Origin: Paenibacillus sp. FSL H8-0537
GTDB taxonomy: Bacteria > Bacillota > Bacilli > Paenibacillales > Paenibacillaceae
DNA length: 64,000 nt
Assembly: GCF_038051995.1 (NCBI RefSeq)
Contig: NZ_CP150290.1
Location: forward strand, 4,950,001-5,014,000
Reading direction: 5' to 3'
The notes under the pieces are model-generated. The model was not told where the DNA came from and did no database searches. It saw nothing but the letters and a program-made list of their open reading frames with translations. Below, piece after piece: positions 21,943-36,367 of this stretch. Within the stretch, counting starts at the first letter, position 1. The number at the start of each line of letters is the position of its first letter. The translations under genes and the position numbers were made by a program.

Positions 21943-22024
21943 AGCAAACACCTCCATTATGCGGACCGTCTAATATAATCTCTTTACCAATTATACATAA
22001 TATGAAAAAAAAAGATAAGATGGG

Positions 22025-22179: not shown

Positions 22180-22989
22180 TCAATAATAGGGTTCTATCCA
22201 ACTTGTATTCATCATGGTAGCTGCGCGATCCCGATTTGGTGAAACGCCATAATAACGTTTATAAATGGAGCCGAATTGGGAACTGGATACATAGCCTATG
22301 GAGTGAGCGATTTCTTTCATTTTCATATTCGTGCTTCGAACAAACACACTAGCCTTTCTCATACGAATCTGCTGCAAATGCTGCATCGGGGATACTTGAT
22401 ACACTCTCGTATATACGCTGCTCAAATAAACGGGATGGCAGCCTACTAATTTCGAAAGGTCGTGAAGCGTAAGCGGCTTCTCATAATGAAGCAGCATATA
22501 GCGATATACGAAACTTATTCGTTTGTCGATCTGTTCAGAAGACCTTCGGGCTGATTCCATTGCGCATACTTTTCTTTTCGGATTCGACTGGATGAATAAT
22601 TGTAGATACCGCTCTAATACATGGATATCCTGTTCAGTCTGAACAGGATTTTTCAATAGCTGCTGTGCTAATTCCCGATCAGCGGGTTTAATGATTGATA
22701 TGGTCCACTCGGCTTCCTCGTCTGTGCGTTCACCTTCAATATTGCAGACAATCCCTTTATAGCTAATCGTAGGTTCGTGCTGCGGCACAATGCACAGTGG
22801 CCCTGAGGCAAGCAGAAGCTCCTCCTTACCTAAAGAAATGGATTGCTGCTCCTGCATAAGCTCCATTGGATTGAGCGCAAGCAGCAGCATGATTTGATCC
22901 CCATGGATCAGCTGTAAGGGTCGTTGCGACTTTCTGTTCATCGTAATCGACTGCTGAGATATTAAGGAATAGAATTGAATCTTTAACAT
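22180..22989 (-). CDS. AraC-family regulator, last gene of the phosphoramidate cluster
   Basis: 269 residues from ATG 22989 (GGGGGA 8 nt before; a TTG at 23016 is possible but poorly placed). The N-terminal part is an unassigned beta-rich sensor (QRPLQLIHGDQIMLLLALN). The C-terminal ~100 residues have two AraC HTH motifs (LHDLSKLVGCHPVYLSSVYTRV, MKEIAHSIGYVSSSQFGSIYKRYYG). It lies 34 nt after the kinase gene on the same strand and ends at a terminator. By position it is the probable cluster-specific regulator. Confidence 0.85.
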   Translation of the reverse strand: MLKIQFYSLISQQSITMNRKSQRPLQLIHGDQIMLLLALNPMELMQEQQSISLGKEELLLASGPLCIVPQHEPTISYKGIVCNIEGERTDEEAEWTISIIKPADRELAQQLLKNPVQTEQDIHVLERYLQLFIQSNPKRKVCAMESARRSSEQIDKRISFVYRYMLLHYEKPLTLHDLSKLVGCHPVYLSSVYTRVYQVSPMQHLQQIRMRKASVFVRSTNMKMKEIAHSIGYVSSSQFGSIYKRYYGVSPNRDRAATMMNTSWIEPYY

Positions 22990-23023
22990 AACCTCATTCC
23001 CCCGTCTCTCCGCCAAATCCCGA

Positions 23024-23539
23024 TTATTCAGGCAGCTTCAAGATTTGTGTAACAATTGCATCTAAAGAAGCAGATGCCTCATTAACGACAATTAGATCAG
23101 GTTGCGATGGTTCTTCAAAATCCATATCCATACCAACAACCTCCTGTACCTGTCCGTTCAAAGCCCCCGTATACAGCTCCTTCTGATTACGAGCTATTAG
23201 CGTATCTTTGGATACTTGCAGGTAGATTTCATAGTAATGTGAAATATTTTCCTTATTCCATGCCCGGCAGGAATGGAACATAGAGATCGTCGCGCACACC
23301 ACATCCAATCCTTGCAAAGCCAGCATCCTGCACATCCTTGCATTACGCATGGCACTTGCATGTCGGTCAGCAATAGAGTAGCCAAGATCATGGCCGAAAG
23401 CCTCTCTTAACATATCGCCGTCAAGAAAAACAACCGCATCGCTTTGTGCCTTCAACCGAGTATATACCTGTTTACCTATTGTGGTTTTTCCTGATCCCGC
23501 CAGTCCTGTAATCCAAAAAACACGGCCTGATTCGTTCAA
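23024..23539 (-). CDS. APS-kinase-fold kinase, probable CDP-phosphoramidate 3'-kinase (Cj1415-like)
   Basis: 171 residues. P-loop GLAGSGKTTIG, then LDGDMLREAFGHDLGYSIADRHASAMRN as in adenylylsulfate kinases. The region that in APS kinases reads IS-P-R-DR is here ISMFHSCRAWNKEN, and no sulfate-activation gene is nearby. C. jejuni Cj1415 is an APS-kinase homologue that phosphorylates the 3'-hydroxyl of cytidine diphosphoramidate, and the three other enzymes of that pathway lie in this same operon. TTG start 23539 overlaps the previous stop (TTGA). A true APS kinase making PAPS for the sulfotransferase-like domain is the main alternative. Confidence 0.75.
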   Translation of the reverse strand: MNESGRVFWITGLAGSGKTTIGKQVYTRLKAQSDAVVFLDGDMLREAFGHDLGYSIADRHASAMRNARMCRMLALQGLDVVCATISMFHSCRAWNKENISHYYEIYLQVSKDTLIARNQKELYTGALNGQVQEVVGMDMDFEEPSQPDLIVVNEASASLDAIVTQILKLPE

Positions 23540-24597
23540 CTTGTTTCCCCCACGGCTCTATTCAAGCAATCTAGCAGCTGCATTAGAAGCTCACTTTCTT
23601 TCAAGCAAGCATCCAAATATGGCCGCATAGTCAATGCATAGGCTTGTGCATCCGGCCGATCCGGCTTGATATAGTATTGAATGACTTTCGATCGAATTAA
23701 CGCCCAATTATCATACAGATCAGTAAAACCCTTTTGCAATTCCTCATAATCATTACGACCAAATACACCTTGATTTTGCAAATAGTCAACAAGCATCAGA
23801 TTGCGCTTCTGGTAAAATAACGAGTATGACAGTCGGTGACTCATATTGGAGTGCAGATCATTGGCAGAGAGGGTAATCTCGCTAAAATGATCGCGAAAGT
23901 ACTCCAATACACCTAGACCTCTCATTGTTGTCGTTTCCTCCGAAGCTACAGATTCACCGTAGAGCTGTTTACCAATATTCGACTGGATGATCCTGTAAGG
24001 CGACTGCGTATCCAGTTGTTCCTTAATGATGCGCAACCCCAATCCAAACAACTGATCTGTGGGAATGGAGTCATAGGAAAGCCGGAAATCCTGGTAGCTT
24101 AATTCATGCTTAACGATCTTTCCTGGCGGAACGCAGTCCTCCACCATATAGAAAGTGGATAACTCGTCGCTATACCCATAGACCAAAACGGGATGAATCA
24201 ATTCGGCTTTACGGCATTCGGGGCAGAAGGGAAAATGGAAACGATTCAATCGCAGAATACAATACGTCCCCTCATTCAAATAACCTTTGACGAGCTCGAC
24301 AGCATCGGTATCTCTGTAGAGTGGCAAATCAACCTGCTGAATATATTCATCTAATAGCGCGTTTGACAAGTTCCTTGTAACATATGGGAGCAGTATGCCA
24401 TTCTCTTGTTTATACTTGTAAACTACGTCGGTAATTACTTCACGCCTCGGAATCTCTATTTCGTATTGCGATGTAATGAGAGGGACCAAGCTTTCGAATG
24501 CCGAATCCCTCGTCATTAGAATGGCGATAACATTATTCCAGTAGCAATCAATTCGGTTCGTGTTATAGGGTTCTAAATCCAGTTTGAACACCGTCAT
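23536..24597 (-). CDS. BtrH-like / cysteine-peptidase-fold acyltransferase candidate
   Basis: 353 residues, soluble. The N-terminal half is similar in layout to the BtrH N-terminal family: an early cysteine (Cys18 in NRIDCYWNNV), a variable helical part, then a beta-rich region with a candidate histidine in LIHPVLVYGYSDE and YMVEDC. The C-terminal ~130 residues are helical and unassigned. In butirosin synthesis BtrH transfers an acyl group from an acyl carrier protein to the aminoglycoside. With two ACPs in this operon, a role in off-loading or transferring the acyl chain is reasonable. Assignment is tentative: catalytic residues are guessed from position. Confidence 0.5.
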   Translation of the reverse strand: MTVFKLDLEPYNTNRIDCYWNNVIAILMTRDSAFESLVPLITSQYEIEIPRREVITDVVYKYKQENGILLPYVTRNLSNALLDEYIQQVDLPLYRDTDAVELVKGYLNEGTYCILRLNRFHFPFCPECRKAELIHPVLVYGYSDELSTFYMVEDCVPPGKIVKHELSYQDFRLSYDSIPTDQLFGLGLRIIKEQLDTQSPYRIIQSNIGKQLYGESVASEETTTMRGLGVLEYFRDHFSEITLSANDLHSNMSHRLSYSLFYQKRNLMLVDYLQNQGVFGRNDYEELQKGFTDLYDNWALIRSKVIQYYIKPDRPDAQAYALTMRPYLDACLKESELLMQLLDCLNRAVGETS

Positions 24598-24611
24598 TCC
24601 CTCCTTCCGGT

Positions 24612-25349
24612 TTATAGCCTGTCTCCATACTTGTTCTCATAGAGCAACAGGTCTGATTCGTGATCAACTTCTAACCATAGTCCGCGATAAGGAATTGCCT
24701 TAATGGCAATCCCCTGTTCGATTAATCCGGCTAGCAAAGCCGTCAAATCCATGCGCTCCACTAGACTTTGATCCTGCAAGGAGAGAAATTGTTGAATCAT
24801 CAGCCACCCCTTTGGCGAAATACGGAGCAACCCCATGAATTGCCCTTCCACCTCCTGAAGAGATGTTGGCCTGCCGCCGATTTCAATAACTCGGCTGTCG
24901 CTTCCCAGTCTGAACGTTTCGGCATCGCTTAACGGATTAAGGAATCGGTCTTCCCACAAGGGAAGCCAGTTAATATTGTAAGGAATGACAATATCGTCAT
25001 CTTCATCTGCGCGCAGCATAAGCTCAATAACATCAGACGTATAGACGATATCGGTATAGCTAACGATGCAAGGCTCTCGCTCCAGCCAATCGGAAGCACA
25101 GCACAGACTGGTAAGCATATTCGTTTGTTCCCATTCCCTATTCTCGAAGTATGTTGCTCCAGCCACTTGTATCCTACCAGCCATATATCCGCGGACGATC
25201 GCGATATCGCGGATGGAAGCCTCGCGAAGCGCTTCAAGCTGTCGATCAATTAATCGTTTGCCTAGCAGCATAGTGCGGCATTTCGGCTCATGCAGGGTAT
25301 GGGAGCCTAACCTGCTTCCACGTCCTGCCGCCAATAGAATAGCTTTCAT
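24612..25349 (-). CDS. Nucleotidyltransferase, probable CTP:phosphoglutamine cytidylyltransferase (Cj1416-like)
   Basis: 245 residues from ATG 25349, which starts the protein at the canonical MKAILLAAGRGSRLG; ATG 25388 would add 13 residues and overlap the upstream gene. The glycine-rich nucleotide loop is followed by EPKCRTMLLGKRLI. The metal site region CIVSYTDIVY and the late LWLEVDHESDLLLYE follow the LicC/phosphocholine cytidylyltransferase pattern. C. jejuni Cj1416 belongs to this family and makes CDP-L-glutamine from L-glutamine phosphate and CTP. Presence of glutamine kinase and amidohydrolase genes in the same operon favours that reaction over choline activation (no choline kinase here). 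Confidence 0.78.
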   Translation of the reverse strand: MKAILLAAGRGSRLGSHTLHEPKCRTMLLGKRLIDRQLEALREASIRDIAIVRGYMAGRIQVAGATYFENREWEQTNMLTSLCCASDWLEREPCIVSYTDIVYTSDVIELMLRADEDDDIVIPYNINWLPLWEDRFLNPLSDAETFRLGSDSRVIEIGGRPTSLQEVEGQFMGLLRISPKGWLMIQQFLSLQDQSLVERMDLTALLAGLIEQGIAIKAIPYRGLWLEVDHESDLLLYENKYGDRL

Positions 25350-25366
25350 CTCATGCAACCCGCTTC

Positions 25367-26146
25367 CTATATCGCTTGGACTGTCCAAGCTCTTGTCTTG
25401 TAAGGCACCTCAATTTCATCAATCTGGCTTAAGCATAGGCTGATCTCGTCCATAATCTTCTCGAACAGAATCTGCCCCGCTTGCACTTGAATATCATTTA
25501 CCGAACGCCAAGCGTTCAAATAACGTTCCTTTGTCATAACAACGGTATGCGGAGCCTCCATAAATATTAAGCGTCCGAAATGCCCCGTAGATAAAAGCGC
25601 CTCCTCGACGCCGCTCATGTGGCTCTGCGAGCCTGATGAAACACGTTTTAAATCAGGGACATAGTGTCTTACTATGCTTTCAATCTGCTGCTGCAGTTCA
25701 TTTCGCTCAATATCCCGCGGATTCCATAAAGCAGTAAAATGCCCCCCTTCTTTCAGGATACGATGAAACTCGCTTAACGCTTGCTTTTGATCTGTCCAAT
25801 GAAAGGAAGATGCCATAAACACCCAGTTTACCGAATCATTCGCCAAGCCCGTTTCCTCCGCAAAACCTTTTTGCCAAGCAAACTGCTTATTGCAAGTATC
25901 CAGACGAATACCTTCTTCCCGCATTGCATCGTTAGGCTCGACAGCTACCCCCCTCATCCCGAGCTTGGCCAGTATTTCGGTTAGCTTCCCCGTTCCCGCA
26001 CCTACGTCTGCAGTCACAAAACCCTCGCTAGCTGCTCCCGTATGCGACATCAGCGCATGTAGAATATCTTCCGAATAACCTGGTCTGTTGACATATTGTT
26101 TGGCCAGCAAAGTAAAATCACCGTGCATCATCTTATTCATATTCAT
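25367..26146 (-). CDS. SAM-dependent class I methyltransferase
   Basis: 259 residues. SAM-binding motif I is TADVGAGTGKLTEIL, the acidic post-I strand is GVAVEPNDAM, and motif IV is VNWVFMASSFHWTDQKQAL. The start ATG 26146 overlaps the previous stop (ATGA); ATG 26140 has better spacing from GGAGGA. By context it may methylate the phosphoramidate oxygen, as proposed for the methyltransferases of the Campylobacter MeOPN locus, or the acyl product. The substrate is inferred only from neighbours. Confidence 0.82.
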   Translation of the reverse strand: MNMNKMMHGDFTLLAKQYVNRPGYSEDILHALMSHTGAASEGFVTADVGAGTGKLTEILAKLGMRGVAVEPNDAMREEGIRLDTCNKQFAWQKGFAEETGLANDSVNWVFMASSFHWTDQKQALSEFHRILKEGGHFTALWNPRDIERNELQQQIESIVRHYVPDLKRVSSGSQSHMSGVEEALLSTGHFGRLIFMEAPHTVVMTKERYLNAWRSVNDIQVQAGQILFEKIMDEISLCLSQIDEIEVPYKTRAWTVQAI

Positions 26147-26745
26147 TCTCCTCCAAATAAATGTTTTATCATGCTCATATCGCTTGGTTCAAACGGCATT
26201 TCCCGTTCTGGATGCCACATAATTCCTTTGATGCTGGCATGCTTGTGCATGACCGCCTCAATGATCCCGTCGGCAGCCCTTGCGGTTACAACGAGCTTCT
26301 CCACAGTCTTTCGAGATCCGTAGCAGTGATAGCTGTTCTTGCTCAAGCTGCCTTCATTTGTGTGCACAGCATGATGCACCGCAACATGGCCCTCGATCCT
26401 CTCCAGTTCGATGCCCCAAAAATCCTGAAGCATTTGCATACCTCTACATACGCCCAGCAAGGGTTTGCCGCTGTCACATGCATATTGAATGAGAAATCGC
26501 TCTACCTCATCCCTCTCCGGTGAACTCCCGCCATACGTTAGCAGATCGTTGCCTCCCGTCATAATCACGCCTCGGATCGGCAGACTTCGTATCATCTCCT
26601 GCACCGTTGGCAAATGATTGGGCAACAGAATCGGCATATAGCCGCAGTTGGCTAAAAGGTTGATCCAGCTTTGGTCAATAGCGTCTCTTCGCTCACCGCG
26701 GCTCGCTACCTCTTCGACACGCATCGTAATGCCAATCATAATCAT
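26143..26745 (-). CDS. Class I glutamine amidotransferase-fold hydrolase, probable gamma-glutamyl-CDP-amidate hydrolase (Cj1417-like)
   Basis: 200 residues from ATG 26745, which overlaps the previous stop (ATGA). Catalytic nucleophile Cys in PLLGVCRGMQML, His-Glu of the triad in GIMWHPERE, and the oxyanion glycines in IMTGGNDLL. This is the PuuD-like gamma-glutamyl hydrolase branch. C. jejuni Cj1417 uses this fold to hydrolyse CDP-L-glutamine to CDP-phosphoramidate and glutamate. Its position directly after the glutamine kinase-like gene fits that role. Polyamine catabolism is the alternative but no puu-type partner is present. Confidence 0.8.
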   Translation of the reverse strand: MIMIGITMRVEEVASRGERRDAIDQSWINLLANCGYMPILLPNHLPTVQEMIRSLPIRGVIMTGGNDLLTYGGSSPERDEVERFLIQYACDSGKPLLGVCRGMQMLQDFWGIELERIEGHVAVHHAVHTNEGSLSKNSYHCYGSRKTVEKLVVTARAADGIIEAVMHKHASIKGIMWHPEREMPFEPSDMSMIKHLFGGE

Positions 26746-29078
26746 TGAATGATCCTCATGTTTTTCCCCGCGCAATCGATGGCAAGCACCTTGGCATTGC
26801 CGTAGTGGTTATACAAATTTTCTCCTACTCCGATTACGGCGGGAATCGAAAGCTCTCCAGCACGAATCGCCATATGTGAATTGACGCCTCCGTACATGGT
26901 TACTAGGCCAGCAATTCCTTTGGAAAAAATCCAGTCATAACCGGGATCGGCACTCGGAAGAAATAAAATGCTTCCCCGCAAGCTTTCATGATCCTCATTT
27001 GAGAATGCAATCTTGCTGGTGACCTGATTCATTGTAATAAAATTCGGCTCAAGCTCCGGTTGACTGAATAACCATACATTAGAGGGCTCGGTGATCAATG
27101 GCGGCAGCTCCAACTGCAAGGTTGCCTCATATCTTTGTCTGCCAGCCCTAACACTATCCAGCAGCAAGCCCTGTATATCGCAATCTGACTCATAAGCCCG
27201 CTTGATTACCTCGATATTGGCAAAGGAAGCCTCCTCCTTCGAAATGCCGTATTCCTCCGCCAATTGGCCGAATAGCCGAATCGCCTCGCTCAAGCTTTTT
27301 GTAAATACAAACTTGGAATATTCCCTTCCCTCAATCGCAGTCTTAAAAAAGTCGAATAGTCCAAGCACATTTCCATCTAAGAGACCGTGCTCTATCAGCA
27401 AAGCTTGAATTCGTTTATATTGAGCAAGCGAAAGAGTGAAGGAAGGCTTCTCTATGACACGATCACGGTCAAGCTCACGCGACGAGGAAAATTCAAAATA
27501 CTGCTCCGGTGCTTCATCATAACGAAGTGAACAGATCTCGTAGGTTCCAGGTCGTAAATGACCATATTTAGCTAGAAAATCGTCCATAGCTAGCTGAGCG
27601 TAATCAATACTAATTTGAGTACTGACTGTCTCTAGACTGCTCATATAACGATGGTAGTCGCTTTCCGATAATATCCCGATGGAGACGAGGGATCGAAGCA
27701 TTTGTACGGCTACGAAGCCCCCTCTTGCCAGCCCGGCGAATGGCAGCGTACCATAGCGCTTGCAATCCTCTAGCAGCCAATAAATTTTCGACACCTTGTC
27801 GATTGAACTGGCGAGAAGCTCCGAACGCCTTGCTTCCAGCTCGTTGATTTTACTCAGATCATTTTGCAATAAACCATTTTCAGTACATACGATATGGTTC
27901 GTAAGATCCTTCAGACAAAGACTAAGCTGCTTCAATTCCGGCTTAGTGAATCCGTGCTCATAAAGAATTTCTAGTCTCGTGTCCAGATCGAAGGTAAAAC
28001 AAGAAAATATGATCTCAAACTCGACCTTGTCATGATTTTGCGGGTTATCAATTAAGCTTTGCATATAATAATTCAAGAGCTTCTCGCTTAATTCGGCATC
28101 TAGCTCCTTTGGCAAAAAGGAGTTGAAGCTGACTCTTACATCGATATATGGAAAACCACCAAGATCAATGAGTAAAGGAAAGCTCCTGACATTCTTATAG
28201 CCATATTGACTCCGCTGATAGGCCCAGATGCTGTCAGTCACTAATTCTTTGTACAGCGATAGCGCGAGCGGCCGGGGACGAATGCCGATTATTTCGGCTG
28301 GATTCCAGTCCGGCATGACACCATAGACCGTTTTGTGTCCATAAAGGTAGGGCTGCCTCGCTTGACCTTGTCCTACTTTGTCATAGATCCGTTTTAGTAT
28401 CGCAAATTGTTGATCAAGGCTTGCTAATTCGCAGGTTAATAACAAAGGCCGAACCTGAAAGAGATACAGCTTGCCTGCCTTGTCCACTGCAAACTCAATA
28501 TCGAGCCTAGGTGTCCCGAATATTTGCTCTAGTTCATCCATCAAATCTATAACTTGACCCAGTGTCCTCCCCGCAGGCAGCGGCGACCCTCTGAAATAAT
28601 GATAGGTTTTGAGATGATTGGTCGTACCCGAGGTGACAGCATCGGTCGCACCGCTCACGTCATCATAGTTGATCACGATATAATTGCCGCCATTATTAGG
28701 ATTTACTCCAAAAGCAACCCCGCTGATTGCGACATCTGGAAGCATCGGTTGTATGAATACATGATGGACCGGATCTTCATCTTGATAGGATGCCAGCACC
28801 CTGTTAACTGCCTGTATGACTTCGCTCTCTCCATTTACGTTAAGAACCGAATCATAGCATCCTGCATAGGAAGCGGTAGTCCCATCCTCCCAGGCCGCAC
28901 TGCTTCGTACAATTAGTGGCGCCCCCGACCATGAAAGCTGCTTCAGACTTTCTAAAACCTCAGATTGCTGATAACGCCACTCATATGCAGTAAATTGAAG
29001 CTGGGGTAGAACGATTGCACACTTGACTAGTCTCTCAAGCCTCTCCAACGTTTCTGATTTTGTACCAAATAGGATCAA
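26742..29078 (-). CDS. PEP-synthase-like phosphotransferase, probable L-glutamine kinase (Cj1418-like)
   Basis: 778 residues. The N-terminal ~220 residues are a pyruvate phosphate dikinase-type ATP-grasp domain (PLIVRSSAAWEDGTTASYAG, VFIQPMLPDVAISGVAF, LDIEFAVDKAGKLYLFQVRP). A long middle region follows. The C-terminal phosphohistidine domain has TMYGGVNSHMAIRAGELSIPAVIG, with the catalytic His at about residue 735. No C-terminal PEP/pyruvate TIM barrel is present, so it is not PEP synthase. Order and size match Cj1418, which phosphorylates the amide nitrogen of L-glutamine. TTG start 29078; the ribosome site is weak. Confidence 0.83.
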   Translation of the reverse strand: MILFGTKSETLERLERLVKCAIVLPQLQFTAYEWRYQQSEVLESLKQLSWSGAPLIVRSSAAWEDGTTASYAGCYDSVLNVNGESEVIQAVNRVLASYQDEDPVHHVFIQPMLPDVAISGVAFGVNPNNGGNYIVINYDDVSGATDAVTSGTTNHLKTYHYFRGSPLPAGRTLGQVIDLMDELEQIFGTPRLDIEFAVDKAGKLYLFQVRPLLLTCELASLDQQFAILKRIYDKVGQGQARQPYLYGHKTVYGVMPDWNPAEIIGIRPRPLALSLYKELVTDSIWAYQRSQYGYKNVRSFPLLIDLGGFPYIDVRVSFNSFLPKELDAELSEKLLNYYMQSLIDNPQNHDKVEFEIIFSCFTFDLDTRLEILYEHGFTKPELKQLSLCLKDLTNHIVCTENGLLQNDLSKINELEARRSELLASSIDKVSKIYWLLEDCKRYGTLPFAGLARGGFVAVQMLRSLVSIGILSESDYHRYMSSLETVSTQISIDYAQLAMDDFLAKYGHLRPGTYEICSLRYDEAPEQYFEFSSSRELDRDRVIEKPSFTLSLAQYKRIQALLIEHGLLDGNVLGLFDFFKTAIEGREYSKFVFTKSLSEAIRLFGQLAEEYGISKEEASFANIEVIKRAYESDCDIQGLLLDSVRAGRQRYEATLQLELPPLITEPSNVWLFSQPELEPNFITMNQVTSKIAFSNEDHESLRGSILFLPSADPGYDWIFSKGIAGLVTMYGGVNSHMAIRAGELSIPAVIGVGENLYNHYGNAKVLAIDCAGKNMRIIQ

Positions 29079-29098
29079 TCCACTCTCACCCAGCTCCC

Positions 29099-31873
29099 CT
29101 AGCGCACGGCATTTTCCACTTGACGCTCAGACAATAATTGGACTTGATATTCCAATCTGTCGGTGTCGCCAAGCTCATGCTCTTCTGCGAGTAATTTCAT
29201 GCATAGACGATGCACCATCGTACGAATAATGGCAGGGTTCTCTAAGAACTCTCCATATTGCTTCTCGAACTTAAACGGGAATGCCAAGAGCTCCCTCAGA
29301 TTATCGTAGTTGTAATAGTCGTGTCCGGAATATCCCCATGCCTGGTATTTAATCCGAAGCATGCTCTCAAGCCTGAATTTGTCGAATGAAGACAATAGCT
29401 CATCATAAGATTTCGAGATGGTACGAGTATTAAATCCGGAAACAACCTCCGATGATAAGGAGTTCCACCATTTCATGCCGCCAAACGTGCTGTGAAGCAA
29501 GCTTTCGTTCCATTCAATGCCCAGATGCTTGCATATCAGCTCAAGAGTAGCCTCCGGCTTTACATGCAAATCCTCTAGCTTCACCAAATACGTCCGATCT
29601 GCCCAGCGTGCTGCTACAGGGATGCCGTGGAACAGCGCTTGCAGCTGAAAGCATAGGTTGTAGATACTCGCTTTGCCGGCATGCAATTGGTAGTTCAACG
29701 CAGATGCAAACGCTATAACGGGATTGCGAATCATATGAAATAATTTAGCATAGGGAAAAAGCTCAATAAGCTGCTCCGTCTCCGCGACACTCGTTGCGAA
29801 GTGAATGCCCCCTTCAATAATGACCGGAAGCTCCGAGGTGAAGTCATAGGCTCTTCCCAGCGCGCAGGATGCCGCAAGCTGTACGGCTTGGTAGAAAAAG
29901 GTTCTATCCATCAGATCAGACGTCTCCGTGATTTCCAAAAATTCCTTCTTAAATCGAATTCGTTCAATCGTGAAAATCTGATCTCTGCCTTCCCCTAAGG
30001 CGCACATCCCGTTCTGCTTCGGTTCTTCAAGAATGCAGCCCTCGTTGAATTCGTCAGGGAACGTCTGGAATATCGCCTCAACGATTTCCTCCTTGTCCAT
30101 GCTCCCTTCACTCGGTTTGATCGTTGATTGCCACAGCTTAAAAATTTCCATACCGTTCAACATCGTTAAAATAATATTCGGATGACCGTCCAATAGACTT
30201 TTCATCAAATGCGTGCCGCTTCTGCCATAGCAATAAATACTGACCACTTTGTTTAATGAAGCCGCATAGTCTCTCTTCGTGAATGCAGCGCGCTCCATGA
30301 GGATGTGAATACGCGTAAGATCTTCCTCAATCCTCAGCCTAGTTTCACTAGAGACTGTAGAACGTTTCGCTCTCCTATAGAGATCACCCGCTTCCAGCAG
30401 ACGGCCTTGTTTTTCGTATAAAGCTCCAAGCTCCAGCAGTAGGGATACCTTCTGAGGCTCCTGGTACAGCTGCTTTTGCAGCCGCTCCTCCTCATGCTTA
30501 AGCAAATGGGGGTTTATCCGAATCAACTTGCCCGTCGAAGTTCTTGGAAGCTTGCTTGTCCAAAAAAACCTTCTCGGCACTTTATAATCGGCCATCTGCT
30601 CTCGGCACCATTCCAGCAAGCTGGATTCCTGTAATGACTCCTGCAGCTCGACATGAGCTTCAATAATCTCGTTGTCCTCTGACAAACAGACCAGCGCATC
30701 TCGGATTTTGGGGTGATGCTTCAGCTTAAGCTCGATCTCCTGGAGGTTCACTTTAAGTCCGCCGATAATCTTAATACTGTCAGTTCGCCCAGCTAAATAT
30801 AAAAGCTGCTCCTCGTTTATGGAGCCCGTATCCGATGTATTGAACCATCCCTCGCTCCATCTTTCGTTCACGATGCGAGGCAGATAGGGAGATTCCGGCA
30901 ATGCCGCCAGCACTTCATTGTTCTTAATCCGCAAGCTTACTCCCGGCAGTAGGCGACCAACACTCTCCGGATTTTTGCCATCCCAGTCCATGGTTAGCAC
31001 GCCAGTCTCGCTCGTCCCGTATTGCTGGCCGATCCTGACTCCAAATCTATCGTGAAAAGCTTGATACACCTCTAGAGAGAGCGCTTCCCCTGCGGAAATA
31101 GCATGCTTAAGCTCAGGGAGCGACTCCGTCCCGGGCACCTGTCCTAATAATTTATAGTGGAATGGCACGCCATACATCACCGAAATTTTTTCCTCCCGAA
31201 GTGTCTGAAGGATGGATTGGCTTTGGTGACTTCGCGGAAAATATAAGCAAGCCCCTGTGAATAACGTCAGCAGCAATCCATTAAGCAAACCAAATGTATG
31301 CGTAAGCGGAGACAAGGCCAACACACGATCATCGCGTGATAGTAAAGGTTCAGCTGTCAATTTATGCAAATCGCCAAGAATCGCTTCTGCTGTTCTACCG
31401 ATTGCTTTCGGCTTGCCCGTAGAGCCTGATGTGAACAATTGAAGCACGTTTTCGGGCTCGCAGTCCTTACTATGCTGGAGCTTCACGATTTCGAAGGAAA
31501 CTTCTTCAGTAAAGCTTGCTAGCGGATGACTCTGATCGGCTGAGCAAATATGATAGTGTGGACCATATTCCTGGAGCAGCGCCTCGGTTTCCGTCCGTTT
31601 CAAACGGCTGTCCAGCAGCATCGCCTGAGCCCCTTGCTTCCATATGGCAAATAATAAATAAACAAAGGTCAGGGAGCTTTTGACTTGCAGTGCAATGAGA
31701 TCCCCTTCCTTAACGCCTGCTTCCGACAGCCGCAGCCGTCCACTTTCGATTTCCTCGAAAAGCTGTCCATACGTTACGGAAGAAGAAAATTTCATGGCCA
31801 ATCGAGAGGGCTCTGCTGTGTTTGAAATCAACGCCTGATAGAATGCTTGCTTATTGACTGAGCTTAATAGCAT
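29099..31873 (-). CDS. Adenylate-forming acyl ligase fused to sulfotransferase-fold domain
   Basis: 924 residues from ATG 31873 (GGAGGAGG five bases before; ATG 31894 would include that site). Residues about 1-450 form a complete ANL enzyme: LFTSGSTGKPKAIGR, GQQYGTSETG, FNTSDTGSI and the catalytic Lys in RTSTGKLIR. Residues about 450-530 are helical, TPR-like (LLLELGALYEKQGRLLEAGDLYRRA). The rest is a sulfotransferase fold: nucleotide loop IYCYGRSGTHLMKSLLDGHP and 3'-phosphate motif HMIRNPVIAFASALNY. The ligase presumably loads an acid onto one of the ACPs. The second domain should bind a 3'-phosphonucleotide donor: PAPS classically, or here perhaps 3'-phospho-CDP-amidate. Confidence 0.85.
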   Translation of the reverse strand: MLLSSVNKQAFYQALISNTAEPSRLAMKFSSSVTYGQLFEEIESGRLRLSEAGVKEGDLIALQVKSSLTFVYLLFAIWKQGAQAMLLDSRLKRTETEALLQEYGPHYHICSADQSHPLASFTEEVSFEIVKLQHSKDCEPENVLQLFTSGSTGKPKAIGRTAEAILGDLHKLTAEPLLSRDDRVLALSPLTHTFGLLNGLLLTLFTGACLYFPRSHQSQSILQTLREEKISVMYGVPFHYKLLGQVPGTESLPELKHAISAGEALSLEVYQAFHDRFGVRIGQQYGTSETGVLTMDWDGKNPESVGRLLPGVSLRIKNNEVLAALPESPYLPRIVNERWSEGWFNTSDTGSINEEQLLYLAGRTDSIKIIGGLKVNLQEIELKLKHHPKIRDALVCLSEDNEIIEAHVELQESLQESSLLEWCREQMADYKVPRRFFWTSKLPRTSTGKLIRINPHLLKHEEERLQKQLYQEPQKVSLLLELGALYEKQGRLLEAGDLYRRAKRSTVSSETRLRIEEDLTRIHILMERAAFTKRDYAASLNKVVSIYCYGRSGTHLMKSLLDGHPNIILTMLNGMEIFKLWQSTIKPSEGSMDKEEIVEAIFQTFPDEFNEGCILEEPKQNGMCALGEGRDQIFTIERIRFKKEFLEITETSDLMDRTFFYQAVQLAASCALGRAYDFTSELPVIIEGGIHFATSVAETEQLIELFPYAKLFHMIRNPVIAFASALNYQLHAGKASIYNLCFQLQALFHGIPVAARWADRTYLVKLEDLHVKPEATLELICKHLGIEWNESLLHSTFGGMKWWNSLSSEVVSGFNTRTISKSYDELLSSFDKFRLESMLRIKYQAWGYSGHDYYNYDNLRELLAFPFKFEKQYGEFLENPAIIRTMVHRLCMKLLAEEHELGDTDRLEYQVQLLSERQVENAVR

Positions 31874-32675
31874 GGCAGCCTCCTCCGAATTCATAATCGT
31901 AGATAATAACCGGGGTGGCTACTTCTCTTTTTTTCAATTGATCGACGGCTATAACCAAATCCACTAGCCCTTGATTGCCGGCAAACGGTCGTACAGGCAG
32001 CTCGGTACCTAAAGGCTCAGTCAAGCTTTCGACTGCTTCAATATAGATATAAGGCTCCTCGTCAGTATCTGAAAAAACATCTCCCTCGACGCTCTCTAGT
32101 AAGAGAGAGATGGCATGATCGCATGATCGCAAAGACGGCTCTGAAGGAGCAAGCTCCGCAAGCAGTTCGTCAGAGCGGCTGCTTTGCAGCTCCACACCAA
32201 TGACCAGTACCTGCTCAACATCTGGTTGATCCATGTAGATAGCAGCTAGATCGAGCAAGGAGACAAGTCCATTCCCGAAGTGGCTGATCGCTGATATCAT
32301 ACCGGTAAAGCCAAATGGTTTGGAAGCGTAGCCAAGAATAGAATTAGGAACAGATTGATAGAACAATAAAGGATTATGGACTTTGCCTTGCAGCAAATTC
32401 TGACTTGCCCGATCTGCAGTAGCCGTATCGCCAAATGCACTGCCGAGTAGAATCGCCAGCTTCTGATGCGAGCGAATCATCCCCGAATCCACATGTTTTT
32501 TCAAAATCTGATACACCATGGGATTGAAGGCGGATTCAATAAATCCGGGGACGGGTTCTATGTCAATCGACCGGCTTGGTTCTTCCGCCGCTCTAAGCAT
32601 ATCCGAGTAATCAGCAAGACCTTCGATGGAATGCCCCCATGGACCTAAGCATTCAGTCGCTGTCACCTTCAGCAT
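31851..32675 (-). CDS. Ketosynthase-like protein without nucleophile (chain-length-factor-like)
   Basis: 274 residues, thiolase-like. AILLGSAFGDTATADRASQNLL, FYQSVPNSILGYASKPFGFTG and VLVIGVELQSSRSDELLAEL correspond to the N-terminal half of a ketosynthase. In the segment where the nucleophile should be (AISHFGNG, residues 129-136) there is no cysteine. The protein is about 120 residues shorter than a full KS. It starts 4 nt after the intact KS with a GGAGGGGGG site, so a heterodimer like KS-CLF or the Ketoacyl-synt_2 proteins of aryl polyene clusters is likely. Confidence 0.7.
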   Translation of the reverse strand: MLKVTATECLGPWGHSIEGLADYSDMLRAAEEPSRSIDIEPVPGFIESAFNPMVYQILKKHVDSGMIRSHQKLAILLGSAFGDTATADRASQNLLQGKVHNPLLFYQSVPNSILGYASKPFGFTGMISAISHFGNGLVSLLDLAAIYMDQPDVEQVLVIGVELQSSRSDELLAELAPSEPSLRSCDHAISLLLESVEGDVFSDTDEEPYIYIEAVESLTEPLGTELPVRPFAGNQGLVDLVIAVDQLKKREVATPVIIYDYEFGGGCHAIKLSQ

Positions 32676-32678
32676 AAA

Positions 32679-33848
32679 TTATCCCCCCTCCACCCATTTT
32701 TGTAGAACAATCGCCGTATTGTTGCCTCCGAAGGATGCATTTAAATTAATAATCTTGTTCAGTTGATTCTTCCTTGGAGAATTCGGTACATAGTCCAAGT
32801 CACAATGGGGATCCTGCTGTTCATAGCCCACTGTGGGCGGAATCGTATTGTGCTTCATCGCCAAGATAGAAAGAGCCGTCTCAACCGCTCCAGTGCCTTC
32901 CAGAATATGTCCCGTCATCGTCTTCGTCGATGAGATCGGTGTATCATAAGCCTTTGCACCAAATGCTTGCTTGATCGCCGCCGTTTCTGCACGGTCATTA
33001 AGAGGAGTCCCCGTTCCATGAGCATGAATATAATCTATTTCTTCCTTTTGAATAGAGGCTGCGGCCAATGCCCTCTCAATGGCAAGTGCCATGCCGGTTC
33101 CATCAGGGTGAGGCTGGCACACATGGAAGGCATCGCAGGATAACCCCCAGCCAAGTATTTCGGCCAAAATCGTAGCTCCGCGCTTCTGGGCATGCTCCAG
33201 ACTTTCGAGCAGAAGCATAGCGCCGCCATCCCCGAGCAGCATGCCTGATCGATTGGACGAAAATGCCCTTACGCGACCGTCCGAAGCAAAGGTGCGGCCT
33301 GAATTAAACTTCGCAAACATCTCCTCCGTTACAAGAGAATATCCGCCGCAAAGTGCTGTTTCCGATTGTCCTCTATTAATAATCTCGTAAGCGACGCCTA
33401 TTGCGTTGCTGGATGCAATACAAGCATTGTTTAAACTTATTTTTTTTCTGTGGCCCTTAACTCGGTACAGGTCAGCTAATACCTTCAAATGGTAGGATGG
33501 CAGAAATTCCGATATCGGTATAACTGATTGTTGACCGGAGGACTTCAACCTCCAGTACTGTTGAAGCGCATTGTAATCGCCTTGCAGGCCGAGTACGATG
33601 GACGATTCCGATAAATCATTTATGCCGGAGGAAGCAACGGCCTCCTCGGCCAAGCGTAACCCCAGTTCGAGCAGGCTTCCCTTGAAATCGGATTCGGCTG
33701 CGAAAGCAGACCGGAAAGGTGTGCTATCGAAGCGTGTAACCGGCCTAAAAAGATGCTCTCCCGCCAGTACGCTCCTCTTAACAGCTTCTTCTCCAAATCC
33801 GTTTGGAACCATTATACCGATTCCCGTTACCACTACCCGATTTCTCAT
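32679..33848 (-). CDS. Beta-ketoacyl-ACP synthase (FabF-like)
   Basis: 389 residues from ATG 33848 (AAAGGGG six bases before; ATG 33866 overlaps that site). The triad is complete: Cys143 in LNNACIASSNAIG, His in YIHAHGTGTPLND (about 277), and His in TKTMTGHILEGTGAVE (about 311). C-terminal LNASFGGNNTAIVLQ is standard. It is more divergent than housekeeping FabF around the nucleophile (usually TACA) and sits with two ACPs and a CLF-like partner, so it belongs to secondary metabolism rather than to membrane lipid synthesis. Confidence 0.88.
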   Translation of the reverse strand: MRNRVVVTGIGIMVPNGFGEEAVKRSVLAGEHLFRPVTRFDSTPFRSAFAAESDFKGSLLELGLRLAEEAVASSGINDLSESSIVLGLQGDYNALQQYWRLKSSGQQSVIPISEFLPSYHLKVLADLYRVKGHRKKISLNNACIASSNAIGVAYEIINRGQSETALCGGYSLVTEEMFAKFNSGRTFASDGRVRAFSSNRSGMLLGDGGAMLLLESLEHAQKRGATILAEILGWGLSCDAFHVCQPHPDGTGMALAIERALAAASIQKEEIDYIHAHGTGTPLNDRAETAAIKQAFGAKAYDTPISSTKTMTGHILEGTGAVETALSILAMKHNTIPPTVGYEQQDPHCDLDYVPNSPRKNQLNKIINLNASFGGNNTAIVLQKWVEGG

Positions 33849-33862
33849 CGCGCACCCCTTTC

Positions 33863-34138
33863 TCACATCATGTTTGTATGCCTCTCAATCATTACTCCCT
33901 TCTCCTGAATGAGCCGGTAAATGGATGTGATAGAGTCGAAGCGCTCGTAGTCCTCGTCTTCAAGCTGCAAACAGATTTGATTGCGATGCTCAAGCATATC
34001 GAGAAACCATATGAGGCATAAAGAGTCCATCATAATAAGTGAATCATCGTTCATCTCATCTGGCCTTGAGACGAACAACTGATTCTCTAGCAGTAGACTT
34101 TTGATTGCCTCCTTGCTAATCAGCGGACTCTCACTCAT
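33863..34138 (-). CDS. Acyl carrier protein
   Basis: 91 residues, acidic. The phosphopantetheine attachment motif is MDSLCLIWFLDML with Ser39. The start overlaps the previous stop (ATGA). Divergent from housekeeping AcpP but with the right helix lengths; second ACP of the operon. Confidence 0.75.
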   Translation of the reverse strand: MSESPLISKEAIKSLLLENQLFVSRPDEMNDDSLIMMDSLCLIWFLDMLEHRNQICLQLEDEDYERFDSITSIYRLIQEKGVMIERHTNMM

Positions 34139-34944
34139 ACAGCATTGACTCGCTCATGCAGAGTGCCAATCAGTTGTCCGACGGTATACCCGCCAATTTG
34201 AATGAGCTCGCTATCGGCTATAGTCAAGCCGAACTGCGTCTCTATTCTGGCAGCAAGCTCGATAATTTGAATAGAGTCCAGCTCAAGCCCGTTGTCCCCA
34301 AGTGGCATTGTCTCGTCAACCTCGCCTTGATTCATCTGTATATTCATCTGCCTGGTGATCATATTCATCACTTCATCGAACATTTGTTGTCTGTTCATCC
34401 TATCGTGGTCCCCTTCCTCATCCATAAATGGCTGGGTCGATTTGGTATTCATTCGGATCATATCTGGATTAAAATATTCAATGAGATGCACGCCGCTTTC
34501 CTGAAATGGAGGAAAAGTCATCTTATATTCCTTGAATGGAACCCGGCGATGCTCTTGAAATCGAAGGCGATATGGTTGATCAAATAAATCCACGGCCTCG
34601 GCTGTAAGCCGCCAGCCATACTGAACCATACTTCGAATATCACGAGTATGGCTTACTCTGAGCACATGACCGATTCCCTCCTTCTTACTCATAATCTGCT
34701 CCAGCAGCGTAGAGGGAACGTAGGCCGGATCAATTAAAACGATGTTCTGCGATACATAACGTTTATCCCTCTCCGTAATCAGGAACGACTCGCGCAAGAT
34801 CTTCCCTCCGGATACATGAGATTGACTCGCAACAATAGGCCGCAGCCGATCCATCGTTATAACCTCGAGCAAATCCGTAGTACGGCTGTTTGAGGTCACA
34901 AGCATTTGCAAGATAATCCACTTCAATTGATTTTGGTCTTCCAA
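34135..34944 (-). CDS. Chorismate-lyase-like domain fused to acyl carrier protein
   Basis: 269 residues from TTG 34944, backed by a perfect AAAGGAGGTGA seven or eight bases upstream. Residues about 10-165 resemble the chorismate pyruvate-lyase/UTRA-like fold (ILRESFLITERDKRYVSQNI, VPSTLLEQIMSKKEGIGHVLR, DIRSMVQYGWR). Residues about 185-269 are an ACP with the attachment Ser224 in GLELDSIQIIELAARIE. First gene of the operon. If the first domain is an active lyase it would supply 4-hydroxybenzoate as a starter directly on a carrier protein; an inactive binding or transfer role is also possible. Confidence 0.7.
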   Translation of the reverse strand: MEDQNQLKWIILQMLVTSNSRTTDLLEVITMDRLRPIVASQSHVSGGKILRESFLITERDKRYVSQNIVLIDPAYVPSTLLEQIMSKKEGIGHVLRVSHTRDIRSMVQYGWRLTAEAVDLFDQPYRLRFQEHRRVPFKEYKMTFPPFQESGVHLIEYFNPDMIRMNTKSTQPFMDEEGDHDRMNRQQMFDEVMNMITRQMNIQMNQGEVDETMPLGDNGLELDSIQIIELAARIETQFGLTIADSELIQIGGYTVGQLIGTLHERVNAV

Positions 34945-35089
34945 ATTGTATTCACCTCCTTTCGTTACTCGTTAATAGCTGAAATCACATAATGTATCCA
35001 CATTTTAAGGTTCTGTTGTAGGTGTGAGCGGTTCGTGGTATTTTTAATGCAAAGACGGAAAGATCAAAGATTAATAGGAGCGATCAAAC

Positions 35090-36367
35090 ATGGTGCAAAG
35101 AGTAAAACGATTTTTATCTGCGTCCGATTTTTTCGGCAACAAGTTTATTCGCGTCATTCTGATATCCAGTCTGTTTCTGCAAATTGGCGTCTGGATGCGT
35201 AACTTTGCCATTCTACTGTTCGTTATGGAAATGACGAATAACGATACCGTTGCCGTGTCACTGCTCTATGTGGCCGAATTTGCACCGATTCTCATCTTCT
35301 CTGTCATCGGCGGAACGTTTGCGGATCGTTGGAAACCTAAAAAAACCATGATTTACTGTGATTTGCTCAGTGCCCTATCGCTGCTGGCCATCCTGGCGGC
35401 CTTAATCGCAGGCTCATGGAAAGCAATATTCTTCACGACGCTGCTATCCGCGGTTCTATCGCAATTCTCGCAGCCCTCCGGAATGAAACTATTTAAGCAG
35501 CATGTGCCGGAGGAGCATATTCAGACAGGCATGGCGATGTACCAAACGTTGATTAGCATCTTTGTGGTCATAGGCCCGGTATTTGGAACTTTCGTTTATA
35601 GCGCATACGGCATTAACGTTTCCCTCGCATTAGTAGCCATCGCATTTGTTTTGTCGGCCATCACTTTAACCTTGCTGCCACCAGACAAGCAGGACAAAAC
35701 CGGGAACAAAAGGGATTCCTTCTGGCTTGAATTACGCGGCGGCTTTACATATGTATTTCAAAATCCGGCACTTCGTTTGCTTGGCATCGCTTACGGCCTA
35801 GGAGGACTTGCGGTCGGTATCATTCAGCCGCTCGGCATTTTCATCGTCGTTGATCAGCTGCAATTGGATAAAGAATATTATCAGTGGTTTGCCAGTACCA
35901 ATGTTGTAGCAACCATTGCTGGAGGTTTGCTCGTTGTAGGAATCTCGAAGCTTGTACCCTCTCAGAAAATTTTAGCCATCGGCAATCTCTTCAGCGCCTT
36001 CTCCGTGATCGGCATGGGATTTTCAACCCTTCTCTCCTTATCTCTGGCGATGCAGTTCATTCGCGGTTTTGTCCTCCCCTTCATACAAGTGGGAATTAAC
36101 TCCATTGTCATGAAAACGACGGATGAAGCTTATGTCGGAAGAGTTAACGGAGCTTTTGGCCCGATCTTCATGGGCTCCATGGTACTCATGACCATGGTTT
36201 CCGGATGGCTTAGCACGTTCCTGCCATTAGCCTTCATGTACCTATGCTCAGGCATTGCGTTTATTGTCTCCACAGTTGTCATCTCTCTGATGTTTCGTTT
36301 GAAGCTTCAGATCAACCCAATTGCCGATATCGCTAGCAATAATCAACAAAAAACCCAATCCATGTAA
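35090..36367 (+). CDS. MFS transporter, probable exporter of the cluster product
   Basis: 425 residues with about 12 membrane helices, of the macrolide/multidrug efflux branch of MFS (LLYVAEFAPILIFSVIGGTFADRWKPKKTM is the loop 2-3 motif; FSQPSGMKLFKQHVPEEH follows). ATG 35090 has AGGAG nine bases upstream. It is divergent from the biosynthetic operon with a 145-nt shared control region. Export and self-protection is the natural inference. Confidence 0.82.
   Translation: MVQRVKRFLSASDFFGNKFIRVILISSLFLQIGVWMRNFAILLFVMEMTNNDTVAVSLLYVAEFAPILIFSVIGGTFADRWKPKKTMIYCDLLSALSLLAILAALIAGSWKAIFFTTLLSAVLSQFSQPSGMKLFKQHVPEEHIQTGMAMYQTLISIFVVIGPVFGTFVYSAYGINVSLALVAIAFVLSAITLTLLPPDKQDKTGNKRDSFWLELRGGFTYVFQNPALRLLGIAYGLGGLAVGIIQPLGIFIVVDQLQLDKEYYQWFASTNVVATIAGGLLVVGISKLVPSQKILAIGNLFSAFSVIGMGFSTLLSLSLAMQFIRGFVLPFIQVGINSIVMKTTDEAYVGRVNGAFGPIFMGSMVLMTMVSGWLSTFLPLAFMYLCSGIAFIVSTVVISLMFRLKLQINPIADIASNNQQKTQSM

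Follow-up and report, generated by a model that had tools for sequence, protein, structure and literature searches.

A Paenibacillus gene cluster that may join a Campylobacter-type phosphoramidate pathway to a carrier-bound aromatic acyl group

Organization of the gene cluster

The gene cluster described here lies in a stretch of 64,000 nucleotides (the window, G000:C1:4950001-5014000) of the 7.0 Mb single-contig genome of Paenibacillus sp. FSL H8-0537. It comprises twelve genes on the minus strand, between positions 34944 and 22180 of the window, and a divergent gene for an exporter of the major facilitator superfamily (MFS). The twelve genes encode, in this order, a chorismate-lyase-fold domain joined to an acyl carrier protein (lyase-ACP1), a second carrier protein (ACP2), a ketosynthase (KS1) and its putative partner (KS2), a ligase fused to a sulfotransferase-fold domain (LigST), and a predicted glutamine kinase, hydrolase, methyltransferase, cytidylyltransferase, BtrH-like protein, CDP-phosphoramidate kinase and AraC-type regulator (Table 1). 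Neighbouring genes overlap or are separated by at most 20 bp (from ACP1 to AraC, -4, -4, 3, -44, 20, -34, -4, -22, 14, -4 and 7 bp), and by this layout they form one transcription unit. An initial annotation of the window had described the open reading frames (ORFs), the operon of overlapping or nearly abutting genes, its methyltransferase, the AraC regulator and the divergent MFS exporter; all of these were recovered. From the sequence we lean, though not strongly, towards reading the cluster as a biosynthetic operon whose product, an aromatic small molecule, would bear an (O-methyl) phosphoramidate group and be exported.

Table 1. Positions in the window of the genes and domains of the cluster, with the match or observation on which each assignment is based.
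Feature	Position	Strand	Basis
Chorismate-lyase-fold domain (N-terminal part of the 269-aa protein 34135-34944)	34435..34944	-	homologs, predicted fold
Carrier domain ACP1, LDSI motif	34135..34398	-	PF00550, E 1e-6
Second carrier protein ACP2, 91 aa, DSL motif	33863..34138	-	motif; no Pfam match in window copy
Ketosynthase KS1	32679..33866	-	PF02801/PF00109
KS2, 274 aa, divergent KS-like partner without active-site Cys	31851..32675	-	position
LigST, ligase and Sulfotransfer_3 fusion	29099-31894	-	PF00501 and PF13469
Acyl/aryl-adenylate ligase domain, LigST residues 1-460	30515..31894	-	PF00501, E 1e-48
Sulfotransferase-fold domain, LigST residues ~541-880, proposed phosphoramidate transferase	29255..30274	-	PF13469
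Glutamine kinase, 778 aa	26742..29078	-	NF004508
Gamma-glutamyl-CDP-amidate hydrolase	26143..26775	-	NF045546 as best model
S-adenosylmethionine (SAM) methyltransferase	25367..26146	-	PF08241 (Methyltransf_11), E 1e-14
Phosphoglutamine cytidylyltransferase-like nucleoside triphosphate (NTP) transferase	24612..25388	-	PF12804 (NTP_transf_3), E 9e-18
BtrH/CtaG/CcbD-like Cys-acyltransferase	23536..24597	-	PF14399, E 7e-5, below cut-off
CDP-phosphoramidate kinase (APS-kinase superfamily)	23024..23539	-	NF004041
AraC-type regulator	22180..23016	-	PF12833, E 4e-15
Divergent MFS exporter, 425 aa	35090..36367	+	PF07690, E 1e-32

The phosphoramidate donor pathway

In Campylobacter jejuni, the enzymes encoded by Cj1415-Cj1418 convert glutamine, ATP and CTP into CDP-phosphoramidate 3'-phosphate, the likely donor of the phosphoramidate group (PMC11800397). 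The initial annotation had assigned four genes of the operon to this route, and two of the four proteins exceed an NCBIfam cut-off. One is the glutamine kinase, whose assignment is borne out by 931 bits on model NF004508 (cut-off 501), of which Cj1418 is presumably a member. Its only domains are PPDK_N, for ATP binding, and PEP-utilizers, with the mobile histidine; His735 is invariant in 23 sequences including that of the window, and the host genome holds no second copy, the next-best match reaching 54 bits. A phosphoenolpyruvate (PEP) synthase identity was considered for this gene and rejected, given that the PEP_synth model yields 69 bits against a cut-off of 740 and that the C-terminal TIM-barrel domain is missing (PF02896, which we take to be the PEP-binding domain of PEP synthase).

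The other is the CDP-phosphoramidate kinase, a member of the adenosine-5'-phosphosulfate (APS) kinase superfamily, which obtained 192 bits on NF004041 (cut-off 127) and, on apsK, 115 bits, under the cut-off of 138.7. These scores agree with the annotated function, but NF004041 is itself named adenylyl-sulfate kinase, at the subfamily level. The protein has ISMFH..R.WN at the place where the three APS kinases of the host have [IV]SP; in a tree built by a quick method these three APS kinases require 2 changes, and a single clade was not rejected (approximately unbiased test, p 0.80).

Two of the assignments are weakened by their scores. The hydrolase has NF045546 as the best of 19 models (124.6 bits, the runner-up giving 46), although the equivalog cut-off of 250 is not reached, and the cytidylyltransferase has the general NTP_transf_3 match without a family-specific model; the proposed functions are thus putative, based on the best model for the hydrolase and on general family and position for the cytidylyltransferase. 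The motifs GVCRGMQ and MWHPER of the hydrolase are invariant across 7 sequences. The true start of the hydrolase may lie about 10 codons further in, like those of loci L007 and L032, and that of the cytidylyltransferase may be codon 14 (25349), as in the relatives in L006 and L095, while those in L093 and L094 keep the longer ORF. None of the four proteins has PEP synthase, the apsK equivalog or PuuD, which correspond to alternatives raised in the initial annotation, as its best match.

Further support comes from other genomes. Glutamine kinase relatives were found in at least 584 genome stretches, among at least 589 that were matched by pattern, and 80 of them, each with up to 10 kb of either flank, constitute the named loci used here (30 of the 80 are shorter than 20 kb; L006, L007 and L032 are, by coordinates, G330, G349 and G352). 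In tblastn searches, relatives of the hydrolase were detected in 77 of the 80 loci, of the cytidylyltransferase in 75, of the kinase in 65 and of the methyltransferase in 61, a count that at the threshold of 1e-4 may include unrelated methyltransferases; all five genes were present in 56. This co-occurrence supports the assignment of the donor enzymes. Likewise, all four donor genes are found together in the window and in six relatives. The sequence evidence for the donor pathway is strong, and very probably these enzymes would synthesize CDP-phosphoramidate 3'-phosphate.

The sulfotransferase-fold domain of LigST

The gene at 29099-31894 had been annotated as an acyl ligase. This is correct for its PF00501 region, but a ligase alone was rejected as its identity, since a Sulfotransfer_3 domain (PF13469) that had been missed lies at the C-terminal end. 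The match spans residues 553-797 (E 2e-11, 44.9 bits, over the cut-off of 27), and the domain retains the GRSGT loop and the RNP motif, which we take to be the 5'- and 3'-phosphate-binding motifs. The proposed donor is a 3'-phosphonucleotide like 3'-phosphoadenosine-5'-phosphosulfate (PAPS), and a sulfotransferase fold would therefore be natural for the enzyme that uses it; the fusion, present in seven genomes, would place the transferase together with the substrate of the ligase. The sequence evidence for such a transferase is good, and the sulfotransferase-fold domain of LigST is likely to be the phosphoramidate transferase.

The genomic linkage of this domain to the pathway was observed in two sets. 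A sulfotransferase (ST) profile, trained on members from the same loci, matched 41 ORFs (ST-like ORFs), distributed over 32 of the 80 loci. Every one of the 41 has the same orientation as the core gene closest to it, as do 254 of 331 control ORFs taken from these 32 loci, and 34 of the 41 lie within 1 kb of a core gene versus 58 of the 331 (controls were non-overlapping ORFs of at least 150 aa in the loci with an ST match, some of them spurious). The second set consists of 388 genomes of the host family, in which relatives of the ST domain (E 1e-6) occur in 9 and the glutamine kinase in 12; all nine are among the twelve, with a hypergeometric P of 4e-16 that ignores shared ancestry, seven of the nine being one fused gene. 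In each of the nine, no more than 1.6 kb separates the ST match from that of the glutamine kinase. Besides the seven with a fused LigST, they are G267 (L100) and G307 (L107), and in the latter the ORFs for the ST domain, the hydrolase and the glutamine kinase abut. Across the 80 loci, the methyltransferase is associated with ST-like ORFs (30/32 loci with such an ORF versus 31/48 without, p 0.003, one of four tests on loci that are not independent); no significant association was found for the CDP kinase (29/32 versus 36/48, p 0.14), and none for the hydrolase or the cytidylyltransferase (p 1.0 each).

A Sulfotransfer_3 domain with these motifs intact could also be an ordinary PAPS sulfotransferase, in which case the metabolite would be both sulfated and phosphoramidated, with another protein as the phosphoramidate transferase. 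The three APS kinases that the host genome has besides the cluster kinase would make PAPS available for it, and the nearest solved structures, among them those of the Ols polyketide synthase sulfotransferase and TPST, are of the PAPS type, at a weak E of 0.003. This explanation is nevertheless unlikely, considering that in the family genomes the relatives of the domain stand only beside the glutamine kinase (9/9), that ST-like ORFs tightly flank the core genes in loci from several phyla, and that the BtrH-like enzyme is the sole other unassigned transferase of the operon.

The assignment of LigST as phosphoramidate transferase has, in addition to the APS kinases, several observations to contend with. 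In the stretch examined, 48 of the 80 loci have no ST-like ORF, and of the 12 family genomes that have a glutamine kinase, 3 are without the domain; other transferases must therefore exist. The ST domain found no match on plasmids at 1e-4, yet 14 plasmid records include relatives of the glutamine kinase, which speaks against a linkage on plasmids. Among ten standalone ST-like proteins that were scanned, four pass the PF13469 cut-off, five fall below it and one has no match; the ST-like ORF of L100 likewise has no PF13469 match. In G307, of the remaining core genes only the hydrolase was found alongside (E 1e-5).

Two other arrangements were noticed among the loci. In gut Firmicutes (L015:988-7713, L016:5765-9215 and L023:6721-9871), two to three ST-like ORFs, some of more than 800 aa, stand in tandem beside the core, as though there were several acceptor sites to decorate. 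In L101:7130-14602 and L102:8058-15541, the core is divergent (glutamine kinase 37-39% and kinase 34-35% identical) and adjoins a Sulfatase-fold protein (PF00884) of about 600 aa, with no ST-like ORF recognised; the Sulfatase-fold protein is perhaps another kind of transferase.

The aromatic scaffold and its carriers

The initial annotation had counted two ACPs. Both are carriers with a conserved serine: that of the DSI motif of ACP1 and that of the MDSL/LDSL motif of ACP2 are each invariant in 7 sequences including the window, and the ACP2 of L006 shows a weak PF00550 match (13.9 bits, under the cut-off). The larger protein (34135-34944) was however rejected as an ACP alone, because its N-terminal domain was found to have a chorismate-lyase fold by its homologs, by an AlphaFold2 (AF2) model and by Foldseek. 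Some of the 46 homologs are named chorismate pyruvate-lyase or 4-hydroxybenzoate synthetase. The AF2 model has a predicted local distance difference test score (pLDDT) of 87, and its top Foldseek match is the DUF98 structure 2nwi (E 1e-8), followed by GntR-type domains and the product-bound E. coli chorismate lyase 1g81/1fw9 (E 3e-3 to 6e-3). In L006:3761-4639, L032:4098-4922 and L095:14521-15408, the lyase is encoded separately, by an ORF that precedes the ACP ORF in the same frame, with a stop codon between them; the distance from this stop to the ACP start is 0, 69 and 0 bp, respectively, and we read these as two genes.

Instead of a lyase, this domain could be, for example, a binding domain, the ligase then loading a different acid, as GntR effector domains have the same fold and PF01947 (Chorismate pyruvate-lyase Rv2949c-like) is not reached by the domain of the window, which has no Pfam match, or by the cluster orthologs P0123 and P0127. 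This is rather unlikely to us: three of the eight homologs scanned, P0138, P0145 and P0150, do pass PF01947, in line with the names borne by other homologs, Arg51, Arg104 and Glu156 are invariant in 27 sequences including the window, and the domain is fused to the carrier that would receive its product. A starter of 4-hydroxybenzoate, formed by a lyase, is the probable case. For the ligase domain, the nearest solved structures are MenE and oxalyl- and feruloyl-CoA ligases. Its 45 structure matches include benzoate and 4-chlorobenzoate ligases, by which an aryl substrate is suggested, but also fatty-acyl, malonyl and non-ribosomal peptide synthetase ligases.

Of the ketosynthase pair proposed in the initial annotation, KS1 has an intact triad, Cys149/His283/His320, invariant in 6 sequences, and obtained 301 bits on the FabF model. 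KS2 stands less firmly, as it lacks the cysteine, has no Pfam match, no detectable profile similarity to KS1 (hhalign probability 0.2) and no match to solved structures; among three orthologs scanned, that of L006 just passes PF13723 (25.6 bits versus 25) and those of L032 and L007 fail. By its position KS2 is like a chain-length factor, but it is too divergent for a firm placement. The operon contains no malonyl transferase, ketoreductase or dehydratase, which counts against the pathway proposed below as regards the use of KS1 and KS2.

The BtrH-like protein had been annotated as such, and the resemblance was found in fold while PF14399 gave 23.4 bits against a cut-off of 29.7. The AF2 model is of low confidence (pLDDT 59.9), and all its 14 structural matches at E<=1e-3 are entries of AziU3, CcbD and CtaG, with best E values of 6e-8, 3e-5 and 9e-5; the profile of the protein gave no match under E 0.6 to solved structures. 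Cys18, His135 and Asp154 are invariant in 6 sequences. AziU3 acts on carrier-bound acyl groups, and CcbD, whose entry titles describe an enzyme working with such groups, uses them to form amides. The BtrH-like enzyme could thus acylate the P-N nitrogen itself, giving an N-acyl phosphoramide, the structure found in the cinnamoylphosphoramide of Streptomyces. The fold relatives CcbD and CtaG make amides from carrier-bound acyl groups, the role of CtaG being a proposed one (PMC6772006), and cinnamoylphosphoramide has been described as a natural product (PMC6429109). Such an N-acylation would leave the CDP-phosphoramidate kinase and the ST-like domain unexplained unless they act elsewhere, and in Campylobacter the group sits on sugar oxygens (PMC9561416); we regard it as decidedly unlikely. 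Transfer of the phosphoramidate to an oxygen by LigST is the reading followed here.

Distribution and conservation

The cluster is syntenic in six other genomes and, therefore, its arrangement is not due to chance. The complete gene set is present in L093, L095, L006 and G035 (L094 with L108). In L032 only the AraC gene is lacking; it was found in L006, L093, L095 and G035 (L108), and not in L007 or L032. The MFS gene is divergent in the identical position in L006, L032, L093, L094 and L095, whereas the stretch of L007 begins inside the lyase gene, at a contig end, with the MFS region outside it. LigST occurs in 3 of 51 genomes of the genus and in 7 of 394 of the family, in 3 of 19 genera, with the cluster present each time; among 398 genomes of the phylum none carried it beyond that of the window (1/398). 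At E 1e-50, at least 9 LigST relatives were found among 7987 candidate proteins scored. Relatives of the KS, ACP and BtrH proteins (1e-4) were detected in no more than 3 of the 80 loci, each from Paenibacillus.

The donor genes have a wider distribution. A review termed the glutamine kinase specific to C. jejuni (PMC9561416). The titles of the 80 loci include Firmicutes, Proteobacteria, Acidobacteria, Planctomycetes, Verrucomicrobia, spirochaetes and others, and the pathway thus extends far beyond Campylobacter. Hitherto the phosphoramidate tag was known chiefly from Campylobacter, on its sugar coat; the glutamine kinase is in fact widespread. Relatives of this kinase are also present on 14 plasmid records (H1-H14) from Azospirillum, Vibrio alfacsensis, Cupriavidus and others, and on the faecal record MT837632.1, labelled as a phage and unannotated; at G073:C8:1088942-1091315 the match is in two overlapping pieces in different frames. 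The Pseudomonas loci L017, L026, L034 and L035 combine core genes with ORFs that, by eye, resemble flagellar hook and rod proteins, and there the pathway may decorate a flagellin glycan.

As Campylobacter puts the group on its capsule (PMC3907429), and as some glutamine kinase loci elsewhere contain glycosyltransferase or flagellar-looking ORFs (seen by eye, uncounted), the operon might attach phosphoramidate and an aromatic acyl group to a polymer of the cell surface or wall and make no free small molecule. We consider this very unlikely. Pfam scans of the 13 cluster proteins revealed no glycosyltransferase, flippase or polymerase domain; two carriers, a KS pair, a ligase and an MFS exporter are present instead, and this composition is equal in the six relatives (L007 being cut by the contig end). 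The initial annotation had stated that there is no capsule gene, and this holds for the cluster and its near flanks, the ORF listing having covered 18-42 kb of the window rather than its whole length. Close to the cluster, this listing includes a second AraC-type regulator (20125-21957; 610 aa, weak GGDEF_2, HTH_18) just beyond it, with an ORF of similar start on the same side in L093, and a protein with a phosphodiester glycosidase (NAGPA) domain at 18584-19993 that was not counted as a member.

A proposed pathway and its significance

The favoured reading of the cluster, an operon for an exported small molecule, can be laid out as follows. By analogy with Campylobacter, the glutamine kinase, cytidylyltransferase, hydrolase and APS-kinase-like enzyme would convert glutamine, ATP and CTP into CDP-phosphoramidate 3'-phosphate, and the methyltransferase probably O-methylates the phosphoramidate. 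In parallel, the chorismate-lyase-fold domain would form 4-hydroxybenzoate from chorismate, the ligase would load it onto ACP1, and KS1/KS2 might carry out a single extension with malonyl-ACP2. The sulfotransferase-fold domain of LigST would bind the PAPS-like 3'-phosphonucleotide donor, a step for which the genomic linkage is the observed part, and would pass the (methyl)phosphoramidate on to an aryl or acyl-chain oxygen, most simply that of the phenol. The acyl group would then leave the carrier for an amine or alcohol, in a reaction of the BtrH/CtaG-like enzyme, and the product, whose structure we infer from these steps, would be exported by the MFS protein. A small molecule with a P-N group had been suggested in the initial annotation; its biosynthetic partners and exporter agree with this idea, while the joining step, with the ST-fold and lyase-fold domains, had gone unseen.

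In Campylobacter, the enzymes for methylation and transfer are known from genetics only or are unassigned: deletion of Cj1421/Cj1422 leads to loss of the group, and the available part of the source assigns no function to Cj1419 and Cj1420 (PMC11800397). In the cluster, the candidate transferase is a domain whose acceptor is likely to be small, and phosphoramidate transfer thereby becomes open to experiment. The cluster further suggests that there is a new class of natural products with a P-N group; in the part of a review drawn on here, few such products are listed and, phosphagens apart, a route to the group is described only for the fosfazinomycins and the Campylobacter capsule (PMC6429109). 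More tentatively, and at a level of confidence that falls short of even, 3'-phospho-CDP-(methyl)phosphoramidate could be a general bacterial group-transfer donor parallel to PAPS, served by its own branch of the sulfotransferase fold, and the aryl-ligase fusion of one lineage could lead to an aryl O-methyl-phosphoramidate as the first thiotemplated natural product of this type. Such a compound would be similar to some synthetic phosphoramidates. Injected sugars and capsule bearing the O-methyl phosphoramidate (MeOPN) did not kill larvae, although mutants in its biosynthesis were less lethal (PMC3907429), and for this reason no bioactivity is claimed for the product of the cluster.

Comparison with known systems

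Among the papers listed in the literature searches, which dealt with the Campylobacter capsule or were reviews or unrelated, no description of such a cluster was found, most subscription papers being outside their reach, so that absence is not proven; likewise, papers since 2017 naming "glutamine kinase" include none on such a cluster, judging by title and start of the abstract. Each enzyme comes from a known family, with KS2 unplaced; as far as this literature goes, the combination and the proposed use of the donor are new.

The cluster shares with the MeOPN pathway of C. jejuni the four clustered donor enzyme families (Cj1415-Cj1418) and a methyltransferase gene. It differs in that capsule genes are replaced by a lyase, a ligase, carriers, a KS pair, a Cys-acyltransferase and an exporter, and in that the transferase role, which in C. 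jejuni belongs to Cj1421/Cj1422, would fall to a sulfotransferase-fold domain in one protein with the ligase. The scaffold half recalls, at the level of fold and family, the cta system for closthioamide of Ruminiclostridium cellulolyticum, where a ligase loads a carrier with 4-hydroxybenzoate derived from chorismate and CtaG then transfers it, the last step being a proposed one (PMC6772006); the lyase-fold domain, the ligase, the two carriers and the CtaG-like enzyme are putative counterparts of its parts. In contrast to closthioamide, the Paenibacillus cluster is without the ATP-grasp beta-alanine loader, Pfam scans of its 13 proteins detected no domain of the CtaC thioamide synthetase (AANH family), and a KS pair and the P-N donor pathway are found instead. 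The KS pair itself is reminiscent of the AmcF-type ketosynthase/acyltransferase pair of cispentacin, for KS1 obtained 209 bits on the AmcF model; this is under the cut-off of 325 and lower than its score on the general FabF model. Finally, CurM ST and Ols ST, from curacin and olefin synthase, work in carrier-protein pathways, and LigST would resemble them in bringing a sulfotransferase-fold domain into such a pathway, although the similarity is weak (E 0.34 and 0.003) and the proposed donor is CDP-phosphoramidate, not PAPS.

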